The translations under genes and the position numbers were made by a program. Below, piece after piece: positions 376 through 13,054 of a DNA stretch of 13,191 nt. Each line of letters opens with the position of its first letter. Positions within the stretch are counted from its first letter, which is position 1. This DNA comes from Candidatus Zixiibacteriota bacterium (GTDB lineage Bacteria > SM23-81): NCBI GenBank assembly GCA_030628225.1, contig DAOVRJ010000041.1, positions 1 through 13,191 on the forward strand, given 5' to 3'. The notes under the pieces are model-generated. The model saw only the letters and a program-made list of their open reading frames with translations, searched no databases and was not told the origin of the DNA.

Positions 376-1176
376 ATGACGCACCACAAAAAGTACCAGA
401 CTATCCTCGTTTCCCACGACGGTCCGCTAGCGCGCATCGCCCTGAACCGGCCCCAGGTGCACAACGCTTTCAACGAGACGATGATACGGGAGCTCCAGGA
501 TGCCTTCGACTCGGTGAAGGATGGCGCAGGAACACGAGTAGTGGTTCTCACCGGCCAGGGCAGATCCTTCTGCGCAGGGGCCGACCTGAACTGGATGAGA
601 AAGGTGAAGGATTTCTCCTTTGAGGAGAACCTGGAGGGGTCCAAGCGGTTGGCCGAGCTGATGTACACTATCTACTCCCTGCCTCTGCCGACCATCGCCC
701 GGGTGAACGGCGCGGCCATAGGAGGTGGCACCGGCCTGATGGCCGCCTGCGATCTGGTCATCGCCGCCCAGACGGCCAGGTTCAGCCTCAGCGAGGTCAA
801 GCTGGGTCTGGTTCCGGCGGTTATCTCCCCCTATGTGGTCCGGCGGGCCGGGGAGAGCGCCTGCCGGGAGTTTATGCTGACGGGGGAACGGTTGGTGGCC
901 GAAAAAGCCCAGCGTTTCGGGCTGGTCAACCAGGTGGTGCCCCTGGAGGATCTGGACAGGGCTGTCCAGGAGCGGGTGGAGCAGCTTTTAACCAGCGGGC
1001 CCGAAGCACTGAGCACCTGTAAGGAGCTTCTTCGCCGGGTCCCGGGGATGAGCTTTGACGAGGTGAGAGCTTACACCGCCGAGGTCATCGCCCGATTGAG
1101 AATCAGCCGGGAGGGCCAGGAGGGAATGTCGGCCTTTCTGGAGAAGAGAAAGCCGAAATGGACTGCTGAAAGCTAA
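376..1176 (+). CDS. liuC: Enoyl-CoA hydratase family, likely methylglutaconyl-CoA hydratase
   Basis: This 266-residue crotonase-fold protein is of normal length. In leucine and isovalerate degradation, methylglutaconyl-CoA hydratase adds water to 3-methylglutaconyl-CoA to give HMG-CoA in the cytoplasm. Visible motifs are the CoA-binding/oxyanion segment RSFCAGADLNWM (63-74), the second oxyanion segment NGAAIGGGTG (111-120) and SLSEVKLGLVPAVISPYVV (137-155). Glu140 matches the second catalytic glutamate of rat enoyl-CoA hydratase (Glu164). The position of the first (Glu144) is Gly120. From memory of the family, that pattern together with GADLxWM and ISPYVV is typical of bacterial LiuC/AtuE-type hydratases rather than crotonases of fatty-acid oxidation. 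The biotin carboxylase gene 56 bases downstream supports the assignment, because methylcrotonyl-CoA carboxylase makes this enzyme's substrate. A generic enoyl-CoA hydratase remains possible. The start at 376 is chosen from the GGAG at 365-368. Confidence 0.85.
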   Translation: MTHHKKYQTILVSHDGPLARIALNRPQVHNAFNETMIRELQDAFDSVKDGAGTRVVVLTGQGRSFCAGADLNWMRKVKDFSFEENLEGSKRLAELMYTIYSLPLPTIARVNGAAIGGGTGLMAACDLVIAAQTARFSLSEVKLGLVPAVISPYVVRRAGESACREFMLTGERLVAEKAQRFGLVNQVVPLEDLDRAVQERVEQLLTSGPEALSTCKELLRRVPGMSFDEVRAYTAEVIARLRISREGQEGMSAFLEKRKPKWTAES

Positions 1177-1232: not shown

Positions 1233-2738
1233 ATGGACCTGAGAAAAGTGCTTGTGGCCAATCGAGGCGAGATCGCCGTGAGGGTGATCAGGGCCTGTCG
1301 TGAGTTGGGTATTTCTACGGTGGCCGTTTACTCCGAGGCAGACAGGGAGTCACTGCACGTCCAGATGGCCGACCATGCTTTGTGCATCGGCCCACCGGCT
1401 CCTCTGGAAAGCTACCTGAATATCGAAGCCATCGTGGATGCCGCCAAAAAATCAGCGGCCCAGGCCATTCATCCCGGGTACGGCTTCTTGTCCGAGAACA
1501 CCAGTTTCGCCAAACGGTGCGAGGAAGAAGACCTGGTCTTTATCGGGCCCACCTCGAACGCACTGGCTCTGGTGGGAGACAAGGTGGCCTCGCGGGTGAC
1601 CATGAGCAAAGCGGGTATCCCCATTATCCCCGGGATGAAGAGCAAAGGGACGGATCCGGCCCTTTTCGCGGCCGAGGCGAAGAAGATCGGATATCCCGTG
1701 CTGATCAAGGCTTCGGCAGGCGGTGGCGGCAAGGGAATGGTGGTGATCAATTCACCCCGGGAACTGAAGGAGGCGGTGGAGGCCTCCATGCGCGTGGCCG
1801 GAGGAGCCTTTGGGGACGAGTCCGTCTATCTGGAGAAATACCTTCCCGCGCCGCGTCATGTGGAGTTTCAGGTATTGGCCGACACCCACGGCAATGCGGT
1901 TCATCTTTTCGAACGGGAGTGCTCCATCCAGCGCAGGCACCAGAAAGTCGTCGAGGAGACCCCCTCGGTGGCCCTGGACGATCGCCTGAGGACAAAAATG
2001 GGAGCGACCGCCGTGGAGGCCATCAAGGCCGCGGGTTACACAAACGCGGGGACGGTGGAGTTTCTATTGGACGATGACGGTCGTTTTTACTTCTTAGAGG
2101 TAAACGCACGACTTCAGGTGGAGCATCCCATCACCGAGCTGACCACGGGGGTTGACCTGGTCCGGCAGCAGATCGCCGTTGCCCGGGGAGAGAAGCTGTC
2201 CTTTAGCCAGAAAGACGTGCGCCGGAGCGGCCACGCCATAGAGTGCCGCATCTACGCTGAGGATCCGGCCAAAGGGTTCATGCCCTCATCGGGCAGGGTG
2301 GCCTTTTTGCGGGAGCCTGGAGGCCCAGGGGTAAGGCATGACTGCGGCATATACTCCGGCTGCCAGGTGCCGGTCCACTACGATCCCATCCTCTCCAAAG
2401 TGATCGTCTGGGGAGAAGACAGAGAGGCGGCAAGAAAGAGAATGCTCTCTGCCCTTTCTGAGACGGTCATTCTGGGGATTCAAACCAGCATTGGTTTTCT
2501 GCAAGATGTTATCGCCCATGCGGAGTTCATCGCCGGCAACACCCATACTGATTTCATCGACAAGTACATGATGCCGTGGAAAGAGGAAGCCGACAAGGAA
2601 CTGCTGCAGGTGATCCTGACGGCCGCGGCCGTGGATGCTCAGGGGAAAGCTGGCCAGCCGGGCAGGAGTTCCTCCTCCTCGGTCAGGCAGGTGACTCCCT
2701 GGCAGACGGGGGGTGGGTGGCGGGTGGGGGGACAGTGA
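1233..2738 (+). CDS. accC: Biotin carboxylase subunit of an acyl-CoA carboxylase (methylcrotonyl-CoA carboxylase-like)
   Basis: This 501-residue cytoplasmic biotin carboxylase uses ATP and bicarbonate to carboxylate the biotin of the carrier protein encoded next. It begins with the biotin carboxylase N-domain signature KVLVANRGEIAVRVIRACRE (5-24). The ATP-grasp glycine loop ASAGGGGKGM is at 160-169, ERECSIQRRHQKVVEE at 227-242 (catalytic Lys238 in E. coli AccC numbering falls here), and the active-site segment EVNARLQVEHP at 289-299. The segment usually reads MNTR, so NAR is a mild variant. The C-terminal domain ends near residue 450. The last 30 or so residues (Ser-run, then Gly/Trp-rich) look unconserved and are encoded by a G-rich stretch. 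Methylcrotonyl- and propionyl-CoA carboxylase alpha chains normally carry the biotin domain in the same polypeptide; here it is a separate gene 76 bases on. Next to liuC, a methylcrotonyl-CoA carboxylase role is likeliest, but acetyl-, propionyl- or geranyl-CoA carboxylase cannot be excluded without the carboxyltransferase, which is not in the window. Confidence 0.9.
   Translation: MDLRKVLVANRGEIAVRVIRACRELGISTVAVYSEADRESLHVQMADHALCIGPPAPLESYLNIEAIVDAAKKSAAQAIHPGYGFLSENTSFAKRCEEEDLVFIGPTSNALALVGDKVASRVTMSKAGIPIIPGMKSKGTDPALFAAEAKKIGYPVLIKASAGGGGKGMVVINSPRELKEAVEASMRVAGGAFGDESVYLEKYLPAPRHVEFQVLADTHGNAVHLFERECSIQRRHQKVVEETPSVALDDRLRTKMGATAVEAIKAAGYTNAGTVEFLLDDDGRFYFLEVNARLQVEHPITELTTGVDLVRQQIAVARGEKLSFSQKDVRRSGHAIECRIYAEDPAKGFMPSSGRVAFLREPGGPGVRHDCGIYSGCQVPVHYDPILSKVIVWGEDREAARKRMLSALSETVILGIQTSIGFLQDVIAHAEFIAGNTHTDFIDKYMMPWKEEADKELLQVILTAAAVDAQGKAGQPGRSSSSSVRQVTPWQTGGGWRVGGQ
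2708..2731 (+). other. G-quadruplex-type motif at the 3' end of accC
   Basis: The sense strand reads G6-T-G3-TGGC-G3-T-G6, that is four or more G-runs of at least three with loops of 1, 4 and 1 bases. This meets the usual intramolecular G-quadruplex pattern. It lies a few bases before the accC stop codon and encodes a Gly-rich tail. Folding in DNA or mRNA is plausible but not shown. Confidence 0.5.
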
Positions 2739-2814: not shown

Positions 2815-3339
2815 ATGGCCCGATCCTTTGGCAGGACATTCCAGTTCACCATCGGGGATACGACTCACCAGCTTTCTCTGTTCTCTGAACCCGGTCTGTA
2901 CCGGGCGCATTTCGGAGACAGACAGCTAGAGGTCCATGTGCAGCCCATATCAGATAATTGCATCTTGTTGGACATCGATGGACATTCGGTGACCGTCTAT
3001 CTGGCCGAGGAGGGTGGAAGGAAATTCATCTGTATCGGGGGCAGGCAATTTGTCCTGGAGGAGGTCCGCGAATCCGCCGGGGCGGGAGTGGCCGCTCAGA
3101 CACAAGCGTTTAAAACAGACTATGCCCTGGTCTCTCCCATGCCGGGCCAGGTGGTGAAAATTCAGGTTTCCGAAGGCGATGTGGTGGAGAAAAACCAGAC
3201 CCTGGCCATCGTGGAGGCCATGAAGATGGAGAATGAGTTGAAAGCATCGGCCCGGGCCCGGGTAAAGAAGGTCTGCGCCGCGGCGGGAGATCTGGTAGAT
3301 GCCGGGCAGATCATTGTGGAGTTGGAGCCGGAGGAGTAA
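2815..3339 (+). CDS. Biotin carboxyl carrier protein of the acyl-CoA carboxylase
   Basis: This 174-residue protein has two parts. Residues 1 to about 90 form a beta-rich segment resembling the BT (biotin-carboxylase-transfer) domain of propionyl- and methylcrotonyl-CoA carboxylase alpha chains. Residues about 104-172 form a classic biotinyl domain, with SPMPGQVVKIQVSEGDVV at 107-124 and the biotinylation motif EAMKMEN at 134-140. The biotin-accepting residue is Lys137. An AGGAAGG at 2798-2804 lies 10 bases before the ATG. It follows accC by 76 bases on the same strand, so the two should form one transcription unit and one enzyme. The BT-like N-terminus makes a methylcrotonyl/propionyl-type carboxylase more likely than AccB of fatty-acid synthesis. 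No carboxyltransferase gene follows; it may lie upstream of the window. Confidence 0.85.
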   Translation: MARSFGRTFQFTIGDTTHQLSLFSEPGLYRAHFGDRQLEVHVQPISDNCILLDIDGHSVTVYLAEEGGRKFICIGGRQFVLEEVRESAGAGVAAQTQAFKTDYALVSPMPGQVVKIQVSEGDVVEKNQTLAIVEAMKMENELKASARARVKKVCAAAGDLVDAGQIIVELEPEE

Positions 3340-3349
3340 AAAACCCGTT

Positions 3350-3412
3350 ATTCGAGAATCGAGATTCGAGACTCGAGATTCGAGACTCGTTGAACCCCGA
3401 GACTAGAGACTC
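3350..3412 (+). repeat. Tandem 14-bp repeat, shared with the region upstream of liuC
   Basis: GAGATTCGAGACTC occurs twice head to tail at 3361-3374 and 3375-3388. It is preceded by the related ATTCGAGAATC (3350-3360) and followed by a copy with two changes at 3399-3412. An exact inverted copy lies at 236-249, so the liuC-accC-carrier module is bracketed by the same repeat family. No terminator or promoter is evident here. Its role is unknown. Confidence 0.65.
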
Positions 3413-3440
3413 GTAAAGGCTGAAGTCAAAAGATTTTTCC

Positions 3441-3480
3441 ATTTTGCATTTTTCACTTTTCATTTTTCACTTTGCATTTC
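3441..3480 (+). repeat. AT-rich direct repeat before the reductase gene
   Basis: The 13-base sequence CATTTTTCACTTT occurs at 3447-3459 and 3461-3473, flanked by TTTGCATTT at both ends of the tract. It marks the change from GC-rich sequence to the AT-richer operon. I find no good -35/-10 pair in it. It could be a simple-sequence spacer or an integration scar. Confidence 0.5.
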
Positions 3481-3497
3481 TTTTACCAGGATCAAGT

Positions 3498-3502
3498 GGG
3501 GG
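3498..3502 (+). promoter_or_regulatory. Ribosome binding site that sets the reductase start
   Basis: A GGGGG run lies 5 bases before the ATG at 3508, and the Rossmann fold starts directly after that ATG (MERLLITGGSGFLGG). The alternative ATG at 3472 lies inside the AT-rich repeat and would add 12 residues unlike the family N-terminus. Confidence 0.5.
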
Positions 3503-3507
3503 TTTTT

Positions 3508-4401
3508 ATGGAACGTCTCCTCATAACAGGGGGCAGTGGTTTTTTAGGCGGCAATTTGGCCTCACTTGCCACCTATTGTTGGGAGACCTATACGACATAC
3601 CATTCTTCCCCTATTCCTGAGAGGGGGTTTGGGACTGCTTTTTATGTGGATATCGGGAAAGAAGACGAGGTCAGACGGCTTATTGGCAAGCTTTCACCAA
3701 AAGTCGTCATCCATGCCGCCGCTATTACTCATCTCGATTTTTGTGCACAGCATCAATGGGTGGCGAGGGAGGTAAATGTCAGGGGCACCGAGAATGTCGC
3801 CCTGGCAGCGGAGCAGGTAAAGGCAAGATTGATTTATGTTTCGACGGATTCTGTTTTTAAAGGCGATGAGGGTCTTTATTCTGAAGATGACCTGCCGGAA
3901 CCTTTGGGCTATTATGGCCAGACCAAATTAGAGGGTGAAAGGATTGTATCTTCTTTAAGTTCAAACTATTGCATAGCACGTGCTTCTCTTTTGTACGGTT
4001 GGAGTCTCAATTCATCCCGGTGTTTTACGGAGACTATGATAAACGATTTGAGGAATAAAAGGGAAGTGAAGCTTTTCGTGGATGAATACAGGACGCCGAT
4101 GTACGTTAAGAATTTATGTGAGATGTTTTTAGAGCTGGCGGCGAGAGATGAGCTGCAGGGAATATTTCATATCGGGGGATCTCAAAGATTAAGTCGGTTT
4201 GAGTTTGGTTTGAGAATAGCGCAGGAATTTGGCTTTAACGAAAAATACATAAATCCCGTTTCAGTGAAGACATTTCCATTTGTAGATAAAAGACCAAGAG
4301 ATTGTTCGATGAGAAATGAAAAGGCGGCCAGTATTTTAAAGGCGAAGTTTTGGAGTATTGAACAGGGATTAAAGGATATGAAACAGTGTCTCATGACTTA
4401 G
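3508..4401 (+). CDS. Extended SDR family NAD(P)-dependent reductase/epimerase, RmlD-like
   Basis: This 297-residue protein has an extended short-chain dehydrogenase/reductase fold, closest by eye to dTDP-4-dehydrorhamnose reductase (RmlD) and sugar-nucleotide epimerases. The NAD(P)-binding motif TGGSGFLGG is at 7-15, the VVIHAAAITH segment at 66-75, the catalytic STDSVF strand at 112-117, and the YxxxK pair Tyr136/Lys140 in YGQTK. The C-terminal half would bind the substrate. RmlD-like enzymes usually reduce a deoxysugar nucleotide, but no other sugar-nucleotide or glycosyltransferase gene is nearby. The stop codon TAG at 4399-4401 overlaps the GGAG of the next gene, so it is translationally linked to the hydratase/citrate lyase genes. 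It may act on an intermediate of that pathway, or be an unrelated passenger. Codon use is AT-rich, like the rest of this operon and unlike both flanks. The exact substrate is unknown. Confidence 0.8.
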   Translation: MERLLITGGSGFLGGNLASLATYCWETYTTYHSSPIPERGFGTAFYVDIGKEDEVRRLIGKLSPKVVIHAAAITHLDFCAQHQWVAREVNVRGTENVALAAEQVKARLIYVSTDSVFKGDEGLYSEDDLPEPLGYYGQTKLEGERIVSSLSSNYCIARASLLYGWSLNSSRCFTETMINDLRNKREVKLFVDEYRTPMYVKNLCEMFLELAARDELQGIFHIGGSQRLSRFEFGLRIAQEFGFNEKYINPVSVKTFPFVDKRPRDCSMRNEKAASILKAKFWSIEQGLKDMKQCLMT

Positions 4402-4411
4402 GAGATACGCC

Positions 4412-6205
4412 ATGAGAAAGACCATAATCGAGAAGATAATCGGAAATCACTCCGGCAGAGCAGTTACTCCTGGAGATATCGTTGAAGTGGAGATTGATAC
4501 AAGAGTTGCCCGGGACTTCGCTGGGGCCAATGTGGTTAAGAATTTAGAGGAGCATAACTTGGCCATACACGAACCGGAGAGGACTTTCTTCACCTTCGAC
4601 TGCAATCCGGGCGGTTCTGATCAAAATTACGCAGCCAACCAACATCTTTGTCGGTTGTTTGCAAGGACATATGGAATAAAGGTTTATGATATCAACATGG
4701 GCATTGGAACACATCTTGCCATAGATGAGGGACTTATCTTTCCTGGTGGAACTCTTATCTCCACTGATTCTCATGCCAACATCGTCGGTGCTATTGGCGC
4801 TTTCGGGCAAGGCATGGGAGACTTGGACATAGCCTATGCATTTGCCAAAGGCAGGGTGTGGTTTAAGGTACCACCCACCATAAAAGTTGTTCTCAAGGGT
4901 GAAGTAACGAACTTCATAACTCCGAAGGATATTACTTTATTTTTGCTTAAGGAATTTGGTGCGTCCGGTTTGCTTGGATATGCCTGTGAGCTCTATGGTG
5001 ATATTATAGAGAAGTTAGATCTTTCCGGAAGGATTACTATAGCATCTATGGCCACAGAGATGGGGGCCATCGTCATCTTATTTACACCTAATCGGGAGAT
5101 GATCGATTACTTAAAAAAAGTAGCAACAAAGGAATTTACCGCTATATATGCGGATAAGAACGCCGAGTATGAAAAAGTCGTAGAACTTGATGTCACAAAT
5201 CTATCCCCGCTCATATCACGGCCGGGCCGACCTGATGATGTTGTTCCTGTTGCTGAGGTAGCGGGCAAAAAAGTAGATTCGGTATTCATCGGCTCATGCA
5301 CCAATGGAAGGTATGAAGATTTGTTTAAAGCCGCACAGATCTTAAAAGGAAGAAAAGTGGCCCCCGGTGTTGTCCTTAAAATAGTACCATCAACTGATAG
5401 GATATGGCGACATTGTATGAAAGAGGGTCTTTTTTCTATCTTTAAGGAAGCAGATGCACTTATTGGTAATGCCGGTTGTGCCGGCTGTGCCGCTGGTCAA
5501 ATAGGTCAGAATGGACCAGGGGAAGTGACCATAAGTACAGGTAATCGCAATTTTCCTGGCAAGCAAGGCAGAGGTGAGGTATGGCTTGCTTCTCCGAACA
5601 CGGCAGCGGCATCGGCAGTTGCCGGGCATATTACCACCGAGGATAATATCCCGCAGAAGCCATCCATTTTTGAAATTTCAAAGGCCAGACGGGAAAAGAT
5701 AATAGAGAGAGAAGTTTCTGAAAGACCAACGAAAACAAGAGGAAGGGTATGGGTTATTTCCGAAAACAACATAGACACCGATATGATTTACCACAATCGT
5801 TACCTGACAGTGACGGACATAAAGGAGATGGGAAAGTATGCTTTTGGCAACCTAAAAGGGTGGGAGGATTTTTCTGAGAAGGTAAAGCCCGATGATATCA
5901 TTGTGGTGGGGAAAAATTTTGGCTGTGGTAGCTCAAGACAGCATGCAGTTGATTGTTTTCGAGCCCTCAAAGTAGGCATAATCATGGCCAGGTCTTTCGG
6001 CGCCATATATGAGCGGAATGCGATAAATTCAGGTTTGCCAATAATGGTGGCTCATGTGCAGAAACTGAACCTCAAAGATGGTGATATACTAGAGGTTGAT
6101 TTTATAAGCGGTGAGATTAGAAAGTTGAAAACAGATGAAATTGTGCAAGGTAGTCCATTCTCTCCAATACAGCTCTCAATTTATAAACGAGGCAGCCTGT
6201 TATAG
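4412..6205 (+). CDS. Aconitase-superfamily Fe-S hydratase, fused large and small subunits, variant active site
   Basis: This 597-residue protein joins a LeuC-like domain (1 to about 420) and a LeuD-like swivel domain (about 443-590). In 3-isopropylmalate dehydratase these are separate chains, and the protein is shorter than AcnA/AcnB. Such enzymes dehydrate and rehydrate hydroxy di- or tricarboxylic acids with a [4Fe-4S] cluster. Cluster ligands are Cys296 (GSCTNGR), Cys356 and Cys359 (GCAGCAAG). Other family residues are His101, the TDSH motif (118-121) and GCGSSRQH (504-511), where most relatives have REH. The catalytic Asp-His pair near residue 63 reads FDCNPGG, so the His is replaced by Cys64. 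That is unusual and may change the acid/base chemistry or the substrate. GGAG at 4401-4404 lies 7 bases before the ATG and overlaps the previous gene's stop. The substrate is unknown: aconitate-, mesaconate/citramalate- and methylaconitate-type acids are possible. I do not call it leuC, because its diverged paralogue and citrate lyase genes follow. Confidence 0.85.
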   Translation: MRKTIIEKIIGNHSGRAVTPGDIVEVEIDTRVARDFAGANVVKNLEEHNLAIHEPERTFFTFDCNPGGSDQNYAANQHLCRLFARTYGIKVYDINMGIGTHLAIDEGLIFPGGTLISTDSHANIVGAIGAFGQGMGDLDIAYAFAKGRVWFKVPPTIKVVLKGEVTNFITPKDITLFLLKEFGASGLLGYACELYGDIIEKLDLSGRITIASMATEMGAIVILFTPNREMIDYLKKVATKEFTAIYADKNAEYEKVVELDVTNLSPLISRPGRPDDVVPVAEVAGKKVDSVFIGSCTNGRYEDLFKAAQILKGRKVAPGVVLKIVPSTDRIWRHCMKEGLFSIFKEADALIGNAGCAGCAAGQIGQNGPGEVTISTGNRNFPGKQGRGEVWLASPNTAAASAVAGHITTEDNIPQKPSIFEISKARREKIIEREVSERPTKTRGRVWVISENNIDTDMIYHNRYLTVTDIKEMGKYAFGNLKGWEDFSEKVKPDDIIVVGKNFGCGSSRQHAVDCFRALKVGIIMARSFGAIYERNAINSGLPIMVAHVQKLNLKDGDILEVDFISGEIRKLKTDEIVQGSPFSPIQLSIYKRGSLL

Positions 6206-6220
6206 TCAACGGGAGGAAAG

Positions 6221-8008
6221 ATGGGAAGGACATTTGCGGAGAAGCTTTTAAATGGCAAAGCAGGCGAGATTGTTTTTCGTAAACCCGACATCGTATTATC
6301 GCATGATAACACAGCCAGCATTAAAAAGACATTTGAGGGCATGGGCGGGAAAAAGGTCTTTGATGCGGATAATCTGCTTATCGTTCTTGACCACGATGCA
6401 CCAGCCACAAACGCCGGCATTGCCAATGACCACAAGGTGATCCACGAATTCATATGCGAACAAAATGTTAAACGGTTTCATCCGGTAGGAGACGGAATTT
6501 GTCACCAGTGCATGAGCAAATACGCGCGACCTGGTATGCTGGTGGTAGGCAGTGATTCACACACTACTACTGCTGGCGCATTCAATGCATTTGCTTGTGG
6601 AATCGATCGAACAGAAACTGCCGGTTTGTGGATAAGGGGTGAGACATGGTTTAGGGTACCGGAAAGCCTGAAGATAGTGCTGAAAGGTAAATTCAATCCT
6701 GGAGTGTATTCCAAGGATTTAGCTCTTTGGCTTGTTGGTATGCTCGGTGCATCAGGTGCCAATTACCTGTCGGTTGAGTTTCATGGTCCGGGTCTGAAGG
6801 ATCTTTCCATTGCCGATCGAATGGTTCTGGCCAATCTTGCCGCTGAGATGGGCGCCAAAAATGCTGTGTTTCCGTTAGATGAAATCCTTAAAGATTGGCT
6901 TAAAGATGATTATCAAGGTGTCTGGGCGGACCCCGACGCAAGTTACCTGGAAACTATTGAGATAGAGCTATCCGATATTGTCCCGGTAGTTGCCTCTCCT
7001 CATTCTGTAGATAATGTACACACAATCTCAGAAACAGGTGCAGTTGAGGTTCACGAGGCTATTATTGGAACATGTACCAATGGTAGAATCGATGATCTCA
7101 GGGTGGCGGCTTTCATATTGAAGGACAAAAAGGTATCTCAAGATGTACAGCTGCTTATCATACCAGCATCCAGAGAGGTATATCTTCAGGCAATTGAAGA
7201 GGGAATAATTGCAGCACTGGTTGAGGCGGGTGCTACTGTGCTTTCTCCAAGTTGTGGACCTTGTCTTGGCAAAGGCCAGGGAATACCCGCAGATGGCTGG
7301 AACGTCATCTCATCCGCGAACCGTAACTTCTTAGGAAGGATGGGCAATAAAAATGCCAGCATTTGGCTTGGATCGCCAGCAACAGTGGCCATATCGGCAC
7401 TCTATGGAAGGATTGCTGATCCAAGAGAGATTTTAGATGAGAGCTTTGAATCCAACGAGTTTCCTTACAGAAGAGAACAGCCCCCAGTATATACCATACC
7501 TGAAGGCGAAAACAGATGCCTGAATGGAGTGTGGAATTATAAAGACGTAGACAACTTCAATACTGACCAGATGTTTGCTGGTTCGCTCACCTACGATATT
7601 AAGAGCTCCGCGCCAGAAAAGATCGTGCCGCATCTATTTAAAGGACTTGATGATAATTTCGCCAAAATGGTAAAAAAGGGAGATATTATTCTTGCAGGTA
7701 GGAACTTCGGCTGTGGCTCGAGTCGTGAACATCCGGCAGTGGGCCTTGCTCACATGGGCGTAAAAGCCGTGATTGCCAAGTCTGTATCAAGGATATTTTT
7801 TCGTGCGTCGGTGAATCAAGGGCTGCCTATTATCATATGTCCTGAAGCCGTAGAAGAATATAATGTTGGCGATCCAATAGAGGTATATTTAGAGGAAAAC
7901 AAGATCAAAGTGGGGGAAAGATGGTTCCCCTATTCTCCGATGCCAAAAGAGCTGCTGAATATTTTCAAAGCAGGTGGACTTAAAAAATATCTTAAAGGAG
8001 AAGCGTGA
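6221..8008 (+). CDS. Second aconitase-superfamily Fe-S hydratase, fused large and small subunits, canonical active site
   Basis: This 595-residue protein has the same fused LeuC-LeuD architecture as the gene before it, but is clearly a diverged paralogue. It keeps the full set of family residues: Asp57-His58 (LDHDAP), His95 (GICHQ), SDSH at 111-114, cluster cysteines Cys285 (GTCTNGR), Cys345 and Cys348 (CGPCLG), and GCGSSREHP at 497-505 with the substrate-binding Arg502. By eye it resembles the 3-isopropylmalate dehydratase, homoaconitase and dimethylmaleate hydratase group. GGGAGG at 6211-6216 precedes the ATG, and only 15 bases separate it from the previous gene. Its stop overlaps the next start by one base. 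Two adjacent hydratases suggest either two sequential hydration steps or a stereochemical pair (dehydration by one, rehydration by the other). A leucine biosynthesis role is unlikely given the citrate lyase genes that follow and the absence of leuA or leuB here. Confidence 0.85.
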   Translation: MGRTFAEKLLNGKAGEIVFRKPDIVLSHDNTASIKKTFEGMGGKKVFDADNLLIVLDHDAPATNAGIANDHKVIHEFICEQNVKRFHPVGDGICHQCMSKYARPGMLVVGSDSHTTTAGAFNAFACGIDRTETAGLWIRGETWFRVPESLKIVLKGKFNPGVYSKDLALWLVGMLGASGANYLSVEFHGPGLKDLSIADRMVLANLAAEMGAKNAVFPLDEILKDWLKDDYQGVWADPDASYLETIEIELSDIVPVVASPHSVDNVHTISETGAVEVHEAIIGTCTNGRIDDLRVAAFILKDKKVSQDVQLLIIPASREVYLQAIEEGIIAALVEAGATVLSPSCGPCLGKGQGIPADGWNVISSANRNFLGRMGNKNASIWLGSPATVAISALYGRIADPREILDESFESNEFPYRREQPPVYTIPEGENRCLNGVWNYKDVDNFNTDQMFAGSLTYDIKSSAPEKIVPHLFKGLDDNFAKMVKKGDIILAGRNFGCGSSREHPAVGLAHMGVKAVIAKSVSRIFFRASVNQGLPIIICPEAVEEYNVGDPIEVYLEENKIKVGERWFPYSPMPKELLNIFKAGGLKKYLKGEA

Positions 8009-9186
8009 TGCAGGGAGCGGAGGCAGGCAGAAGGGGTAAAGGGGTAAGAGCGGATTGTTTTGTGCGGCTGGAAGCAAGATCATCAGGTGGTATCAAAATA
8101 GAGCTGAAAAGCAAAGTCGAGTCGATGTATGGTGATTCGATAAAGGAACTTGTGCAACAAATGATTAAATTTTTCAAAATCAAGGCTGCATATCTATATC
8201 TTGAGGACTCAAGTGCCTTTCCATGGGTACTTATGGCCAGGGTTGAAGCAGCTATTAAACGTTGTTATCCTGAAAAAAGCGAGGAATTTCTCCCTGATAT
8301 GATGCCCCAAAATCTTTACACGAAACCAAGGGATACTTTCAGACGCACTCGCCTCTATGTGCCAGGTAATCAACCAAGGCTTGTGATCAATGCTGGATTA
8401 TATAAACCAGACGGTATCATACTCGACCTTGAGGACAGTATAGCGCCCGCCGAGAAGTACTCGACCAGGTTTATGGTTCGTAATGCACTATGTGAAGTTG
8501 ATTTTATGGGTGCAGAGCGTATGGTACGGATCAATCAAATTCCTGAAGGGATAGATGACCTTCCTTTTGTGGTTCCGCATAACATACACGTTATACTTAT
8601 TCCGAAATGTGAAACTCCCGAGGAAGTAGAAGAAGTCGATGGCAAAACACAACAACTGCGTGCCAAACACAGTGTTAAAAATGACGTTTATCTTATCCCC
8701 ATAATTGAGAGTGCCTTAGGTATAGAGAATGCATACAGAATTGCCACTGCGTCAGAGAAAGTTGTTGGCTTAACTATTGGACTTGAAGATTTCACTGCTG
8801 ATATAGGAGCTGAACGTACAAAAGAAGGCCGGGAAAGCTTTCTTGCCCGTCAAAAGATAGTTATTGCGGCAAGAGCAGCAGATGTCCAACCGCTCGATTC
8901 TGTCTACTCCGATGTAGAGGATGAAAAGGGCCTCATGGCAAGCGTTATCGAAGCTAAGCAATTGGGTTTTGAGGGCAAGGGCTGCATTCACCCAGGGCAG
9001 ATAAAGGTCATACATGAGGGGTTTGCTCCAACTTCTGCGGAGATAGATAGGGCGAAGAGGATAGTTGCCGCCATGGAGGAGGCCGAAAAGAAGGGTTTGG
9101 GCGTTGTATCCCTCGGTACTAAGATGATAGATCCACCAGTTCTTAAGCGAGCACAAAGAATACTTAAGCTGACCAGTATCCAGTGA
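8008..9186 (+). CDS. citE: Citrate lyase-like CitD-CitE fusion (acyl carrier domain plus lyase subunit)
   Basis: This 392-residue protein combines two citrate lyase subunits. Residues about 10-100 align without gaps with CitD (gamma, acyl carrier) as I recall it: DCFVRLEARSSGGIKIEL (16-33), then KVESMYGDSI (36-45) against CitD VEKQFGDAI. Residues about 110-392 are CitE (beta), the aldolase-like subunit that cleaves the acyl thioester: RRTRLYVPGN (112-121), LDLEDSIAP (139-147), MVRINQ (172-177), PIIESALG (231-238), SVYSDVEDEKG (298-308), then GLGVVSLGTKMID (363-375). Normal CitE is about 300 residues, so the extra length is the carrier domain. In Klebsiella and E. coli CitD, Ser14 carries the phosphoribosyl-dephospho-CoA group in an ESxD context. 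Here the aligned residues are Arg14-Ala15-Asp16, so the attachment serine is missing. The enzyme may use free CoA thioesters or another substrate. AGGAG at 7996-8000 supports the ATG at 8008; the GTG at 8005 would add one residue. The start overlaps the previous stop by one base. Confidence 0.85.
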   Translation: MQGAEAGRRGKGVRADCFVRLEARSSGGIKIELKSKVESMYGDSIKELVQQMIKFFKIKAAYLYLEDSSAFPWVLMARVEAAIKRCYPEKSEEFLPDMMPQNLYTKPRDTFRRTRLYVPGNQPRLVINAGLYKPDGIILDLEDSIAPAEKYSTRFMVRNALCEVDFMGAERMVRINQIPEGIDDLPFVVPHNIHVILIPKCETPEEVEEVDGKTQQLRAKHSVKNDVYLIPIIESALGIENAYRIATASEKVVGLTIGLEDFTADIGAERTKEGRESFLARQKIVIAARAADVQPLDSVYSDVEDEKGLMASVIEAKQLGFEGKGCIHPGQIKVIHEGFAPTSAEIDRAKRIVAAMEEAEKKGLGVVSLGTKMIDPPVLKRAQRILKLTSIQ

Positions 9187-9187
9187 T

Positions 9188-9195
9188 GGAGGTGA
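9188..9195 (+). promoter_or_regulatory. Strong ribosome binding site that sets the citF start
   Basis: GGAGGTGA is a near-perfect anti-16S match, with its GGAGG 5 bases before the ATG at 9198. The in-frame GTG at 9183 and ATG at 9186 are the alternatives, but they would sit upstream of or within this site. Confidence 0.7.
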
Positions 9196-9197
9196 CT

Positions 9198-10754
9198 ATG
9201 AATGGCAAGATCAACGCCTTGGGCAGATGGATTCCTGAGCAGATAAATGGGCAGCCTGTTATTCCGTTTCAAGGTATAGGCAAGTACATTCCTGAAGGTA
9301 GGAAAGCAGCGCCACCGATAGTAAGCTGTGCAAATTATCCGAAAGATGGCAACAAAGTCGTCAATAGCCTGCGTAAAGCACTTGAGCTTGCCGGAATAAA
9401 AGATGGAATGACCATCTCAACACATCATCATTTCCGCAACGGTGATAAGCTCACTAACAAGCTCTTTGATACGATGGCCGAGATGGGTGTCAAGGACCTT
9501 ATATGGTTTCCCAGCGCATCATTCCCATGTCATGAACCGATCATTGAGCATCTTAAAAGTGGTGTGATTCATCACATCGAAGGTAGTATGAATGGCTCGC
9601 TAGGCAGGTTCTGCACAATGGGTAAGATGAAGGGTCAGGGTGTTCTTCGCTCGCACGGCGGTAGGTATCGAGCAGTACAGGATGGTGACGTCCACATAGA
9701 TATAGCGGTTATTGCCGCTCCCGCAGCTGATCCTTTCGGCAACGCAAATGCACTGTACGGGAAATCAGCATGCGGACTGCTTGGCTTTGCCCTGGCAGAT
9801 TCACAATATGCTGATAAGGTCATCATAGTGACCGATAACCTGGTTCCATTTCCCTGTATACCTTGGCAAATACATGGAAATCACGTAGATCATGTGGTGG
9901 TGATGGACGAAATCGGTGATCCAGAAAAAATTGTCTCTGGAACGACCAGAATAACGCGAAGTCCTGCGAGATTGCTCATCGCTGAGTATACAGCAAGATT
10001 TATAAAAGAAGCCGGTATTATGAAGGATGGCTTCTCTTTTCAGGCAGGTGCTGGTGGAATATCCTTGGCATTCATATCATTTCTCAAGAAGTTCATGGAG
10101 GAGGCGGGAGTAAAAGCTGGTTGGGTAAGAGGGGGTAGCACCCGCCACCTTGTTGAATTGCTTAATGAAGGTCTAACCTCTTATATACTTGACGGACAGA
10201 CATTTGATCTTGACGGCGTTAGATCTATGCGCGACAACCCCAATCATGTTTGGACATCACCGTTCACCAGCTATAATTATCATGGCAAAGGCAACTTCGC
10301 TTCCATGATAGATGTTGTCATACTTGGTGCTACTGAAGTAGATGTTTCCTTCAATGCCAATGTGGTGACCCATACGGATGGTCTGCTACTGCATGGAATG
10401 GGAGGTTGGCAGAATTGTCTTTTCGCCAACTGTACGATACTTGCCTTACCATCTTTCAGAGATCGAATTCCAGTTATTGTGGATAAGGTCACTACGATCT
10501 GTGGACCTGGGCAACTCATCGATGTTGTGATAACGGAGAGAGGAATTGCCATCAATCCGGCCAGGAAAGATCTCATAGATTCATTAAAAGGATCTGATTT
10601 GCCGGTAAGAACGATTGATGAGATAAAGATAGAAATCGAAAAAATTTGTGGAGGCCCCCCTGTTCCCCCCAAGGTAGATAAAAAGAGGGTGGTAGCTGCC
10701 ATCGAATGGGTTGACGGCACTGTCATCGATGTTGTCTACAAAAAGATAGATTGA
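9198..10754 (+). CDS. citF: Citrate lyase alpha subunit-like CoA-transferase
   Basis: This 518-residue protein matches CitF in length and along its whole sequence. In citrate lyase it moves the acyl-thioester carrier from acetyl to citrate, so that CitE can cleave the citryl thioester to oxaloacetate and regenerate the acetyl carrier. Family segments seen are THHHFRNGDKL (75-85), RSHGGRYR (151-158), DPFGNANALYGKSACGLLGFA (178-198), FSFQAGAGGISLAF (279-292), NPNH (347-350), and the C-terminal DGTVIDVVYK (506-515). Where E. coli CitF has a GGHCDTA-type segment (from memory), this protein has GGWQNC (402-407), a possible sign of a different substrate. It starts 11 bases after citE and closes the operon. 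Genes for the ligase and prosthetic group synthesis (citC, citG, citX) are not in the window. With the missing carrier serine upstream, the complex may not be a standard citrate lyase; citramalate lyase is a named homologue that would also fit. Confidence 0.88.
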   Translation: MNGKINALGRWIPEQINGQPVIPFQGIGKYIPEGRKAAPPIVSCANYPKDGNKVVNSLRKALELAGIKDGMTISTHHHFRNGDKLTNKLFDTMAEMGVKDLIWFPSASFPCHEPIIEHLKSGVIHHIEGSMNGSLGRFCTMGKMKGQGVLRSHGGRYRAVQDGDVHIDIAVIAAPAADPFGNANALYGKSACGLLGFALADSQYADKVIIVTDNLVPFPCIPWQIHGNHVDHVVVMDEIGDPEKIVSGTTRITRSPARLLIAEYTARFIKEAGIMKDGFSFQAGAGGISLAFISFLKKFMEEAGVKAGWVRGGSTRHLVELLNEGLTSYILDGQTFDLDGVRSMRDNPNHVWTSPFTSYNYHGKGNFASMIDVVILGATEVDVSFNANVVTHTDGLLLHGMGGWQNCLFANCTILALPSFRDRIPVIVDKVTTICGPGQLIDVVITERGIAINPARKDLIDSLKGSDLPVRTIDEIKIEIEKICGGPPVPPKVDKKRVVAAIEWVDGTVIDVVYKKID

Positions 10755-10897
10755 GATAAGAAAAAAACGGATGAACCGCTGTTCTTAATTGAAGTTCTAA
10801 CCAATGTTGCTGGAAGGGCCTAATTATTTGATTTCATAAGCGAGAAGAGAATTTTCAGGTACGATTTAACAAGGGGCTATGACGGAGAGTTTTTTCT

Positions 10898-10925
10898 TTG
10901 AAATGAGGCAAATTTTTCGTAGATT
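10898..10925 (+). promoter_or_regulatory. Possible sigma70-type promoter for the thiolase operon
   Basis: TTGAAA at 10898-10903 (5 of 6 to TTGACA) is followed 16 bases later by TAGATT at 10920-10925 (4 of 6 to TATAAT), in the 205-base gap before the thiolase. The sequence between citF and here (10755-10897) holds nothing I recognise. The match is modest and could be chance in AT-rich sequence. Confidence 0.3.
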
Positions 10926-10940
10926 GTGAAAAGATTCACT
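10925..10940. promoter_or_regulatory. CRP/FNR-family-like palindromic operator
   Basis: The sequence TGTGA-N6-TCACT matches 9 of the 10 defined bases of the CRP consensus TGTGA-N6-TCACA. It lies 20 bases before the thiolase ATG and just downstream of the candidate -10 box, so a bound protein would more likely repress than activate. It may also simply form a small hairpin (GTGAA/TTCAC) near the ribosome binding site at 10947-10954. Confidence 0.35.
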
Positions 10941-10959
10941 TTCATTAAGGAGGTATTGA

Positions 10960-12153
10960 ATGAGTACATCGCCACGCGATGCGGTCATCGTTAGCGCCAC
11001 CAGGACGCCCAGCGGCAATTTTCTGGGTTCCCTTTCCTCTTTCACCGCGCCTCAATTGGGTACTATGGTCATCAAAGAGGCGGTGAAAAGGGCCGGCATC
11101 GATCCCCAGGAGGTTGGTGAGGTGATCATGGGTCAGGTGCTGCAGGGGGGCTGTGGTCAGGCTCCTGCGCGCCAGGCGGCCATTTATGCCGGCATCCCTC
11201 CGGAGGCAGGTGCCATGACCATCAACAAGATCTGCGGCTCCGGACTGAAGGCTGTGGAGTTAGCTGCCCAGGCCATTCGGCTGGGTGATCAGGATGTGAT
11301 CGTGGCCGGGGGGATGGAGAGCATGAGCAATGCCCCTTACGTATTGCACGGCGCCCGGAAGGGGTTAAAGTTCGGTGAGCAGAAGCTAAAGGATGGCATG
11401 ATCCTGGACGGTCTATGGGATTCCTTCAACGATTTTCACATGGGAGTGGCCGCAGAGCTCACCGCCGAAAAAGGCCAGCTTTCCCGTGAGGATCTGGATC
11501 AATACGCCTACAACAGCCAGATGAAGGCGGTCAAGGCCATCAAGGAGGGCAAATTCAAGGCCGAGATCATCCCCGTGGAGATACCCCAGAGAAAAAAGGA
11601 CCCGATTATCTTCGACACCGACGAGACCCCCAGGGCCAATACAACCCTGGAGGGCCTGGCCAAGCTGCGCCCGGCCTTCCAGAAAGACGGCAAGTTGACT
11701 GCCGGAAATTCGCCGGGCCTTAGCGACGGAGCGGCGGCCGTGGTGGTAATGGCCAGGGAGAGGGCCGAGAAGCTGGGTGTCAAACCCATGGCCACCATCC
11801 GCGGCTATGCCACCGCCGGCACCGAGCCCAAATGGCTGTTTTATTCCCCGATAGTGGCGGTAAAGAAATTGATGGCCAAGCTGGGGATGACCATCGACGA
11901 TTTTGAGCTCATCGAGGCCAACGAGGCCTTCAGCGCCCAGGCTCTGGTGGACGGCAAGGAGCTGGGTTGGGACTGGGAACGGGTAAACGTTCACGGCGGC
12001 GCCATCGCCATGGGCCACCCCATCGGGGCCAGCGGTGCCAGAGTGCTGGCGACTCTGCTGTATGCCTTGGCCGATAGAGACAAGAAGGTTGGCTTAGCCG
12101 TTCTGTGTCTGGGTGGGGGCAACGCGGTGTCCATGTGTGTGGAGCGTATGTAG
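10960..12153 (+). CDS. atoB: Acetyl-CoA C-acetyltransferase (thiolase)
   Basis: This 397-residue type II thiolase is of standard length. It condenses two acetyl-CoA to acetoacetyl-CoA or runs in reverse in degradation; the latter fits this locus. The nucleophilic cysteine is Cys92 in NKICGSGLKA (89-98). The other catalytic residues are His353 in GGAIAMGHPIGASG (346-359) and Cys383 in CLGGGNAV (383-390). The NEAF motif is at 321-324. AGNSPGLSDGAAA (248-260) replaces the more common AGNASGINDGAAA. AAGGAGGT at 10947-10954 gives a strong ribosome binding site. Base composition returns to GC-rich here, unlike the operon just upstream, so I treat it as the start of a new unit with the hydroxyacyl-CoA dehydrogenase 49 bases downstream. 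It could serve the last step of leucine degradation after acetoacetate activation, or butyrate oxidation. Chain-length preference is not readable from the sequence. Confidence 0.9.
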   Translation: MSTSPRDAVIVSATRTPSGNFLGSLSSFTAPQLGTMVIKEAVKRAGIDPQEVGEVIMGQVLQGGCGQAPARQAAIYAGIPPEAGAMTINKICGSGLKAVELAAQAIRLGDQDVIVAGGMESMSNAPYVLHGARKGLKFGEQKLKDGMILDGLWDSFNDFHMGVAAELTAEKGQLSREDLDQYAYNSQMKAVKAIKEGKFKAEIIPVEIPQRKKDPIIFDTDETPRANTTLEGLAKLRPAFQKDGKLTAGNSPGLSDGAAAVVVMARERAEKLGVKPMATIRGYATAGTEPKWLFYSPIVAVKKLMAKLGMTIDDFELIEANEAFSAQALVDGKELGWDWERVNVHGGAIAMGHPIGASGARVLATLLYALADRDKKVGLAVLCLGGGNAVSMCVERM

Positions 12154-12202: not shown

Positions 12203-13054
12203 ATGACCATCTCCAAGATAGGCGTCGTCGGTGCCGGAACCATGGGCAGCGGCATCGCCCACATCTGTGCCCTCTCCGGATACGATGTTTGCCTGGCCGA
12301 CGTGAGCCAGGAGATTTTGGATAAGGCCATGGCCGTCATCGAGAAGAACATGGGGCGGCAGGTCAAGAAAGAGATCATCGGCCAGGATGACATGGACAAG
12401 GCTCTTTCTCGTATCAAGACCAGCGTGGACCTGAAAGAGACCGGGGATGCCCAGGTGGTTATCGAGGCCGCCAGCGAGGACATGGGTCTCAAGAACAAAT
12501 TGTTCGGCCAGTTAGACCAAATTTGTCCCCCGGAGACCATCCTGGCCACCAATACCTCTTCCCTGCCCCTCACGGAACTGGCCGCTGTTACCAGTCGCCC
12601 GGACAGGGTGATGGGCATGCATTTCATGAACCCCGTTCCGATGATGAAGCTGGTGGAGCTGATCCGGGGTCTGGCCACCAGCGACGAGACCTTTCAGATT
12701 ATCGAGGATTTGACCAAAAAGCTGGGCAAGACACCGGTGGCGGTCAGCGATTACCCCGGTTTTGTGGCCAACCGCTTGCTGATACCGATGATTAACGAGG
12801 CGGCTTATGTCCTCATGGAGGGAGTGGCCACCAGAGAGGACATCGATACGGTGATGAAACTGGGGATGAACCATCCCATGGGACCTCTGACCCTGGCCGA
12901 TTTGATCGGGTTGGATATTTGTTTAGCTGTGATGGAAGTTCTTTACAAGGGTTTTTGCGATTCTAAATATCGGCCTTGCCCGCTGTTGCGCAAGATGGTG
13001 CAGGCCGGCCATCTGGGGAGAAAGACGAGGAAAGGTTTCTACGATTACGAGTGA
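12203..13054 (+). CDS. hbd: 3-hydroxybutyryl-CoA dehydrogenase
   Basis: This 283-residue protein has the length of the single-function short-chain enzyme. It interconverts 3-hydroxybutyryl-CoA and acetoacetyl-CoA with NAD(P). The Rossmann motif [14 protein letters not shown] is at 7-20. The four residues that act in the human enzyme (Ser137, His158, Glu170, Asn208) fall at Ser119, His140, Glu152 and Asn190 with identical spacing. The C-terminal dimer domain shows [16 protein letters not shown] (223-238) and the closing [13 protein letters not shown] signature. GGAGG at 12191-12195 lies 7 bases before the ATG. It sits between thiolase and an acyl-CoA dehydrogenase, so the three make a butyryl/crotonyl-CoA-type beta-oxidation set. 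No crotonase is adjacent; the liuC-like protein upstream is not an obvious substitute. Confidence 0.93.

Follow-up and report, generated by a model that had tools for sequence, protein, structure and literature searches.

The window analysed here is contig C158 in full (13,191 bases), from a 306-contig metagenome-assembled genome (MAG) of a Candidatus Zixiibacteriota bacterium (2.34 Mb, 92.3% complete). Below, G000 denotes the window's own genome, G001, G002 and so on the genomes of relatives, and L and C loci and contigs. The window carries a block of five genes (3508-10754, Table 1), all with ATG starts; their spacing is 10, 15, -1 and 11 bases, as the first-pass annotation of this stretch had reported. 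The first gene, P0001, encodes an RmlD-like short-chain dehydrogenase/reductase (SDR). The other four, P0002 to P0005, encode two Fe-S hydratases, a fused CitD-CitE protein (CitDE) and a CitF-like protein, and they probably form the lower half of a lysine degradation pathway in which the alpha-aminoadipate pathway runs in reverse and ends in a "homocitrate lyase".

Both hydratases are fused LeuC-LeuD-type proteins. P0003 scored 460 bits with the NCBIfam subfamily model hacA_fam, above its cutoff of 385.7, and P0002 scored 399.7 bits with the same model. Neither reached an equivalog cutoff (TIGR00139 and HacA_Meth in the case of P0003), and P0002 was below the cutoff of IPMI_arch. The best PDB match of P0002 was the large subunit of an isopropylmalate/citramalate isomerase. 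The three candidate cluster cysteines of P0002 are C296, C356 and C359, and those of P0003 are C285, C345 and C348. The best family for the CitE half of P0004 was TIGR01588 (280 bits, under the cutoff of 443.4), and the AlphaFold2 model, of high confidence throughout (predicted local distance difference test score 94), has a CitE-like fold. The structural-search results for P0004, which span mostly residues 86-393 and inform on the CitE half and not on the CitD part, were led by CLYBL and malyl-CoA and citramalyl-CoA lyases, with Z of about 31-36. P0005 matched PDB entries 2hj0 and 1xr4 and was 81% identical to its counterparts in G002 and G003.

Table 1. Features of the window, with HD-domain protein sites at related loci. 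GC/GC3, G+C content of the gene and of its third codon positions.
Feature	Position	Strand	GC/GC3	Basis or remark	Proposed role
Enoyl-CoA hydratase-like flank	376..1176	+	0.617/0.787	Open reading frame; 77% identical gene on G001 C49	Outside the cassette
Biotin carboxylase flank	1233..2738	+	0.599/0.727	Open reading frame; 75% identity to G001 C49	
Biotin carboxyl carrier protein (BCCP) flank	2815..3339	+	0.566/0.686	Left insertion edge between BCCP and 3508	
P0001, RmlD-like SDR	3508..4401	+	0.438/0.446	Pfam RmlD_sub_bind 208 bits; below NCBIfam rmlD cutoff	AT-rich passenger
P0002, fused LeuC-LeuD-type Fe-S hydratase	4412..6205	+	0.443/0.420	Pfam Aconitase + Aconitase_C	Putative homocitrate dehydratase (homocitrate/homoaconitate half-reaction)
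P0003, second fused LeuC-LeuD-type Fe-S hydratase	6221..8008	+	0.457/0.418	Pfam Aconitase + Aconitase_C	Putative homoaconitate hydratase
P0004, fused CitD-CitE	8008..9186	+	0.450/0.397	Pfam ACP (residues 16-86) + HpcH_HpaI (114-330)	Putative homocitryl-CoA lyase subunit with serine-less carrier-like domain
Codons for V-R-A-D at the CitD prosthetic-group serine (Ser14) position	8044..8055	+		Alignment to E. coli CitD (NC_000913) and Klebsiella CitD	
P0005, CitF-like transferase subunit	9198..10754	+	0.460/0.432	NCBIfam citF TIGR01584 506.9 bits, cutoff 501.45	Putative acetyl-CoA:homocitrate CoA-transferase
Thiolase flank	10960..12153	+	0.599/0.746	Right insertion edge between 10754 and 10919	
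3-Hydroxybutyryl-CoA dehydrogenase (HBD)-like flank	12203..13054	+	0.554/0.739	79% identity to G001 C49	
HD-domain protein sites	L050:5608-6192; L038:763-1326; L119:17287-17862; L133:9404-9952 (G000 C220)				

The CitD domain of P0004 is present (PF06857, 55.7 bits) and has lost the serine that bears the prosthetic group in citrate lyase: the window reads R-A-D at the Ser14 site, and this column is Arg or Lys in 81 of the 84 fused CitDE relatives. CitG (PF01874) was found neither in G000 nor in 33 of the 34 genomes with CitDE, the E. coli control being positive. CitC (PF08218) was likewise not detected in G000, and its matches elsewhere were short and weak (E 1e-4 to 1e-7) except for a strong one in G068, the genome that also has CitG. 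In this Bacteroidetes MAG (G068 C154, L165), whose CitDE is serine-less, CitG and CitC lie together on another contig. Because the cofactor serine is lost and CitG is missing from 33 of the 34 carriers, the sequences suggest that free CoA thioesters may replace the covalently bound cofactor. The CitE-half neighbours named above use free CoA thioesters, which would fit this model, yet such use is general for the CitE fold.

Nine fused CitDEs were aligned and used to scan GTDB genomes, which gave 482 relatives, and 80 loci were kept. P0002 to P0005 are a cassette that recurs in seven or more phylum-level groups besides that of the window. All four genes occur together in nine of the 80 loci, in the window's order in L050 (WOR-3), L056 (Eisenbacteria), L065, L100 (Aminicenantes) and L117 (a chromosome-level Gemmatimonadota MAG), and rearranged in L061 (Armatimonadetes), L090 and L098 (Cloacimonadota) and L119 (Bacteroidetes). 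The hydratase and citrate-lyase-like set is kept in distant genomes with different flanks, which was the support that the first-pass annotation had looked for. In G002 and G003, from the same phylum as the window, the order is HD protein, P0002, CitDE, CitF. P0002 was present in 13 loci and PrpD/MmgE in 33 others, the two never together, and PrpD/MmgE appears to take the place of P0002 in other cassettes. The usual order in Ignavibacteria and Phycisphaerae is dehydrogenase, HD protein, homoaconitase, PrpD, CitDE and CitF, with the HD protein sometimes after the homoaconitase. In most lineages the cassette comes with this HD-domain protein of 175-205 residues, whose gene often separates that of the dehydrogenase from that of the first hydratase; in G000 a cassette-type HD protein is on C220.

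Enzymes of lysine metabolism were found next to the cassette. Lysine-ketoglutarate reductase (LKR) and saccharopine reductase lie beside the cassette or CitDE-CitF in L061, L074 and L098, and LKR does so in L090; these loci include Cloacimonadota and Armatimonadota. The L098 pair matched the LKR domain of human AASS with E 8e-78 and saccharopine reductase with E 2e-89. A piperidine-6-carboxylate (P6C) dehydrogenase adjoins the cassette of Anaerolineales bin12, a chromosome-level MAG, and scored 758 against a curated cutoff of 730. It shares an 881-residue frame (L141:1286-3931, minus strand, G073 C1) with the AAA + M41 half of FtsH; the two may be truly fused or may have been joined during assembly. 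The hydratase that was tested from Ignavibacteria-type cassettes (L059) is a curated homoaconitase by TIGR00139 (844 bits, cutoff 529.9). The best NCBIfam models for the beta-decarboxylating dehydrogenases of the cassettes were those of homoisocitrate dehydrogenase (AksF), under the cutoffs; the dehydrogenase of L098 is encoded at 12831-14018. The S-V-N of Methylococcus isocitrate dehydrogenase aligns with SPIV in nearly every readable cassette-type dehydrogenase, at a position that we take to be the substrate-discriminating site in the family.

Co-occurrence was counted in 389 relatives that were at least 90% complete, 28 with a full-length CitDE and 361 without. LKR was found in 12 of the 28 and 25 of the 361 genomes (p = 9.6e-7), lysine 6-transaminase in 10 and 44 (p = 0.002), and at least one of the two in 22 and 67 (odds ratio 16, p = 1e-10); no CitDE genome had both. 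A second set consisted of 35 genomes selected as carriers or close relatives; P6C dehydrogenase was above its cutoff in 15 of them and lysine 6-transaminase was present in 14. In G000 itself, C261 encodes an LKR (41% identity, E 2e-102) and a saccharopine reductase (47%, E 6e-129), the latter with a G+C content typical of the genome. A four-helix-bundle-like protein is encoded between these two genes (L132:3277-3660), and G001 encodes a similar one next to its reductase. Lysine 6-transaminase was not found in G000. An aldehyde dehydrogenase on C276 scored 375 bits, below the P6C dehydrogenase cutoff, and its class adjoins lysine 6-transaminase in G002 and G009.

From the computed gene content, order, conservation and co-occurrence, the serine loss and the CitG absence, we infer the substrates, the direction, the free-CoA mechanism and the half-reaction of each hydratase, and we give the resulting lysine pathway a probability of roughly 60%. 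Lysine would be converted through saccharopine to 2-aminoadipate 6-semialdehyde (AASA) by LKR and saccharopine reductase, both of which G000 has, or by lysine 6-transaminase as the alternative in relatives. AASA/P6C dehydrogenase would oxidise the semialdehyde to aminoadipate, transamination would give 2-oxoadipate, and homoisocitrate dehydrogenase would carboxylate it reductively with CO2 and NAD(P)H to homoisocitrate. P0003 and P0002 would then lead from homoisocitrate through homoaconitate to homocitrate, with PrpD/MmgE instead of P0002 in other lineages. The CitF protein would move CoA from acetyl-CoA to homocitrate with release of acetate, and the CitE half would cleave homocitryl-CoA to acetyl-CoA and 2-oxoglutarate; the CitD domain would keep its fold and, its cofactor serine lost, leave free CoA in the place of the bound cofactor. 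The net reaction would be lysine and CO2 to acetate and 2-oxoglutarate with two amino groups passed on, and the 2-oxoglutarate used at the start would be regenerated at the end. In some organisms that make lysine, the homoaconitase is limited to the second half-reaction, and a route through homocitrate is therefore expected to need two hydratases. The cassettes repeatedly hold two distinct types of hydratase each, which matches the expectation for homocitrate and not for citrate. The idea, raised in the first-pass annotation, that the Fe-S hydratases supply the lyase with a hydroxy acid holds, with homocitrate as the probable acid. The broader claim, of a new lysine catabolic pathway with CO2 fixation and a cofactor-freed homocitrate lyase that was passed by transfer among many uncultured phyla of anaerobes, is made more tentatively, at a little under even chances.

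Several points weigh against the lysine pathway. The chief weakness is that homoisocitrate dehydrogenase is either missing from the G000 assembly or its step is done differently: no Iso_dh-family gene (PF00180) was found in G000 or G003, whereas all 14 control genomes have one, and the incompleteness of the two (G000 92%, G003 90%) explains this only in part. The family is present in G002 and most other carriers. The lysine genes of G000 sit on contigs other than the window's, many Bacteroidales loci show only CitDE-CitF, and 6 of the 28 CitDE genomes lack both LKR and lysine 6-transaminase. The co-occurrence statistics ignore the kinship of genomes; the carriers nonetheless come from 21 families, and a lysine enzyme occurs in 17 of these. 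A Ser beside the Ser14 column, absent in the window, is kept in 79 of the 84 CitDE relatives, in which it may point to an unusual cofactor attachment. Finally, the sequences of P0002, P0003, CitE and CitF hold no residue that would establish homocitrate, and not citrate, as the substrate.

The alternative that survives best, though we consider it unlikely, is ordinary citrate cleavage, in which an acetate-forming citrate lyase, aconitases and isocitrate dehydrogenase would form a reductive half of the tricarboxylic acid (TCA) cycle, from 2-oxoglutarate and CO2 through isocitrate and citrate to acetate and oxaloacetate. The family names CitF, CitE and aconitase fit this route, no other LeuC/aconitase homolog was found in G000 by searching with P0003, and citrate lyase has been proposed to close the reverse TCA cycle in Geobacter bemidjiensis (PMC2996986). 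However, the cassettes have two hydratase types and not one aconitase, the L059 hydratase is a homoaconitase by its curated model, and the cassette dehydrogenases lack the S-x-N motif of isocitrate dehydrogenases. It is saccharopine and P6C genes that adjoin the cassette, the co-occurrence is with lysine enzymes, and Melioribacter roseus has been described with an ordinary TCA cycle of citrate synthase, aconitase and Icd (PMC3534657). The cassette shares CitF, CitE and CitD-like domains and the proposed logic of acyl exchange and cleavage with canonical citrate lyase (CitCDEFXG, for example citC-citG of E. coli NC_000913). It differs in its fusion of CitD to CitE, in Arg/Lys for the serine, in the proposed substrate and, in 33 of the 34 carriers, in the lack of both CitG and a convincing CitC.

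It is improbable that the genes serve the biosynthetic direction, as in lysine synthesis through alpha-aminoadipate, or shorten another 2-oxo acid, for example by reversed leucine synthesis via isopropylmalate. Both directions have the same intermediates, and LeuCD-type enzymes use isopropylmalate in leucine synthesis, but a lyase cleaves and does not condense, and both P6C/AASA dehydrogenase and lysine 6-transaminase belong to catabolism. The curated homoaconitase and the homoisocitrate-dehydrogenase-like gene speak against the isopropylmalate variant. Alpha-aminoadipate biosynthesis (fungi, Thermus; compare AksDEF of methanogens) draws on the same enzyme families (homoisocitrate dehydrogenase, homoaconitase, saccharopine reductase) and starts with homocitrate synthase, whereas the proposed route runs in the opposite direction, uses the catabolic P6C dehydrogenase or lysine 6-transaminase and ends in a lyase. 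Least probable of all is the methylaspartate route of glutamate fermentation, from mesaconate through citramalate to acetate and pyruvate: mesaconase and (S)-citramalate lyase do act serially there (PMC8473912), with a hydratase feeding a citrate-lyase-type complex of the same enzyme classes, and the best PDB match of P0002 agrees, but a single hydratase would suffice, the second hydratase, the lysine enzymes and the homoisocitrate-dehydrogenase-like gene would be unexplained, and no glutamate mutase or methylaspartate ammonia-lyase was recognised by eye in the listed neighbourhoods, a genome-wide search not having been made.

Two further systems resemble parts of the proposed lysine pathway. 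The 2-methylcitrate cycle also pairs PrpD with an aconitase-type hydratase, as the cassettes of Ignavibacteria and Anaerolineales pair PrpD/MmgE with one, but the cassette would cleave by CitDE-CitF and not by a PrpB-type lyase, and its context is lysine. The CoA-dependent CitE homologs (CLYBL, malyl-CoA and citramalyl-CoA lyases) act on free CoA thioesters and are the best structural matches of the CitE half, but they have neither a CitD domain nor a CitF partner. In a review of anaerobic fermentations, lysine is degraded via aminomutases and citramalate lyase appears in glutamate fermentation (PMC8473912). Neither a "homocitrate lyase" nor this pathway is named in the open-licence literature searched, and no paper there combines lysine, saccharopine and Cloacimonas. 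Since subscription literature lay outside the search, novelty is provisional; the system is apparently undescribed, with known enzyme families, a new pathway direction and a degenerate carrier domain.

The block is an insertion at a syntenic site, present in the window and absent in G001, the only relative found in the family. Contig C49 of G001 (L186) carries biotin carboxylase, BCCP, one nucleosidase-like gene, thiolase and HBD without the block. The flank proteins of the window and G001 are 75-86% identical, except BCCP (about 55%), and DNA homology ends at window position 3338 and resumes at 10919. Since both flanks lie in order on a single G001 contig, an assembly chimera is unlikely and was dropped. 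The flanking acyl-CoA and biotin-carboxylase genes and the block need not share a function. In the intergenic stretch at the left edge of the block (3340-3500) lie direct repeats of the form TCGAGATTCGAGACTCG, with a TTTTCATTTTTCACTTT tract after them. A promoter and terminator scan of 3200-11100 found promoters no more frequent than in shuffles.

All five block genes are richer in AT than the genes on both sides (GC 0.44-0.46 and GC3 0.40-0.45, against a flank GC3 of 0.69-0.79), and the counts that the first-pass annotation gave as examples, 19/60 G+C at 5101-5160, 38/60 at 541-600 and 42/60 at 11701-11760, are exact. The tetranucleotide correlation was 0.24 between block and flank, and 0.63-0.89 between flank and three other G000 contigs. 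Other AT-rich genes occur inside GC-richer contigs of G000, at L133:10150-12316 (GC 0.36-0.39) and L155:2098-3951 (GC 0.38). Segments of 7.2 kb from the most AT-rich parts of those contigs equal the GC of the block (0.451). Composition is therefore supporting evidence and not unique to the block. In the CitF tree the window groups with its phylum relatives G002 and G003 and a Stahlbacterium (support 100/100), and P0002 leans to the same side (83/78). P0003 falls in a fused clade with Cloacimonadota, Bacteroidota and Armatimonadota (100/100), whereas the P0003-like protein of G002 and G003 is a split pair located elsewhere in those genomes. The block is foreign by composition yet, since the gene trees point to different clades, of mixed descent. 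The earlier suggestion that it was acquired as a unit stands as far as foreign composition and absence from the syntenic G001 site are concerned. It does not stand for a single donor, which the trees do not support, or for five genes together: no homolog of P0001 was found in any of the 80 related loci, and this gene was dropped as a pathway member.

If the proposed lysine pathway is correct, lysine would have a further, distinct way of being degraded, one that gives back acetate and the 2-oxoglutarate needed at the start by LKR or lysine 6-transaminase. It would also give a function to fused CitD-CitE genes that would otherwise be annotated as citrate lyase in many genomes from sediment, groundwater and digesters, and such genomes would be re-read as those of amino-acid degraders and not as evidence of a reverse TCA step. 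The lineage appears to do without the prosthetic group of citrate lyase, and would be a natural test of what that group is for.

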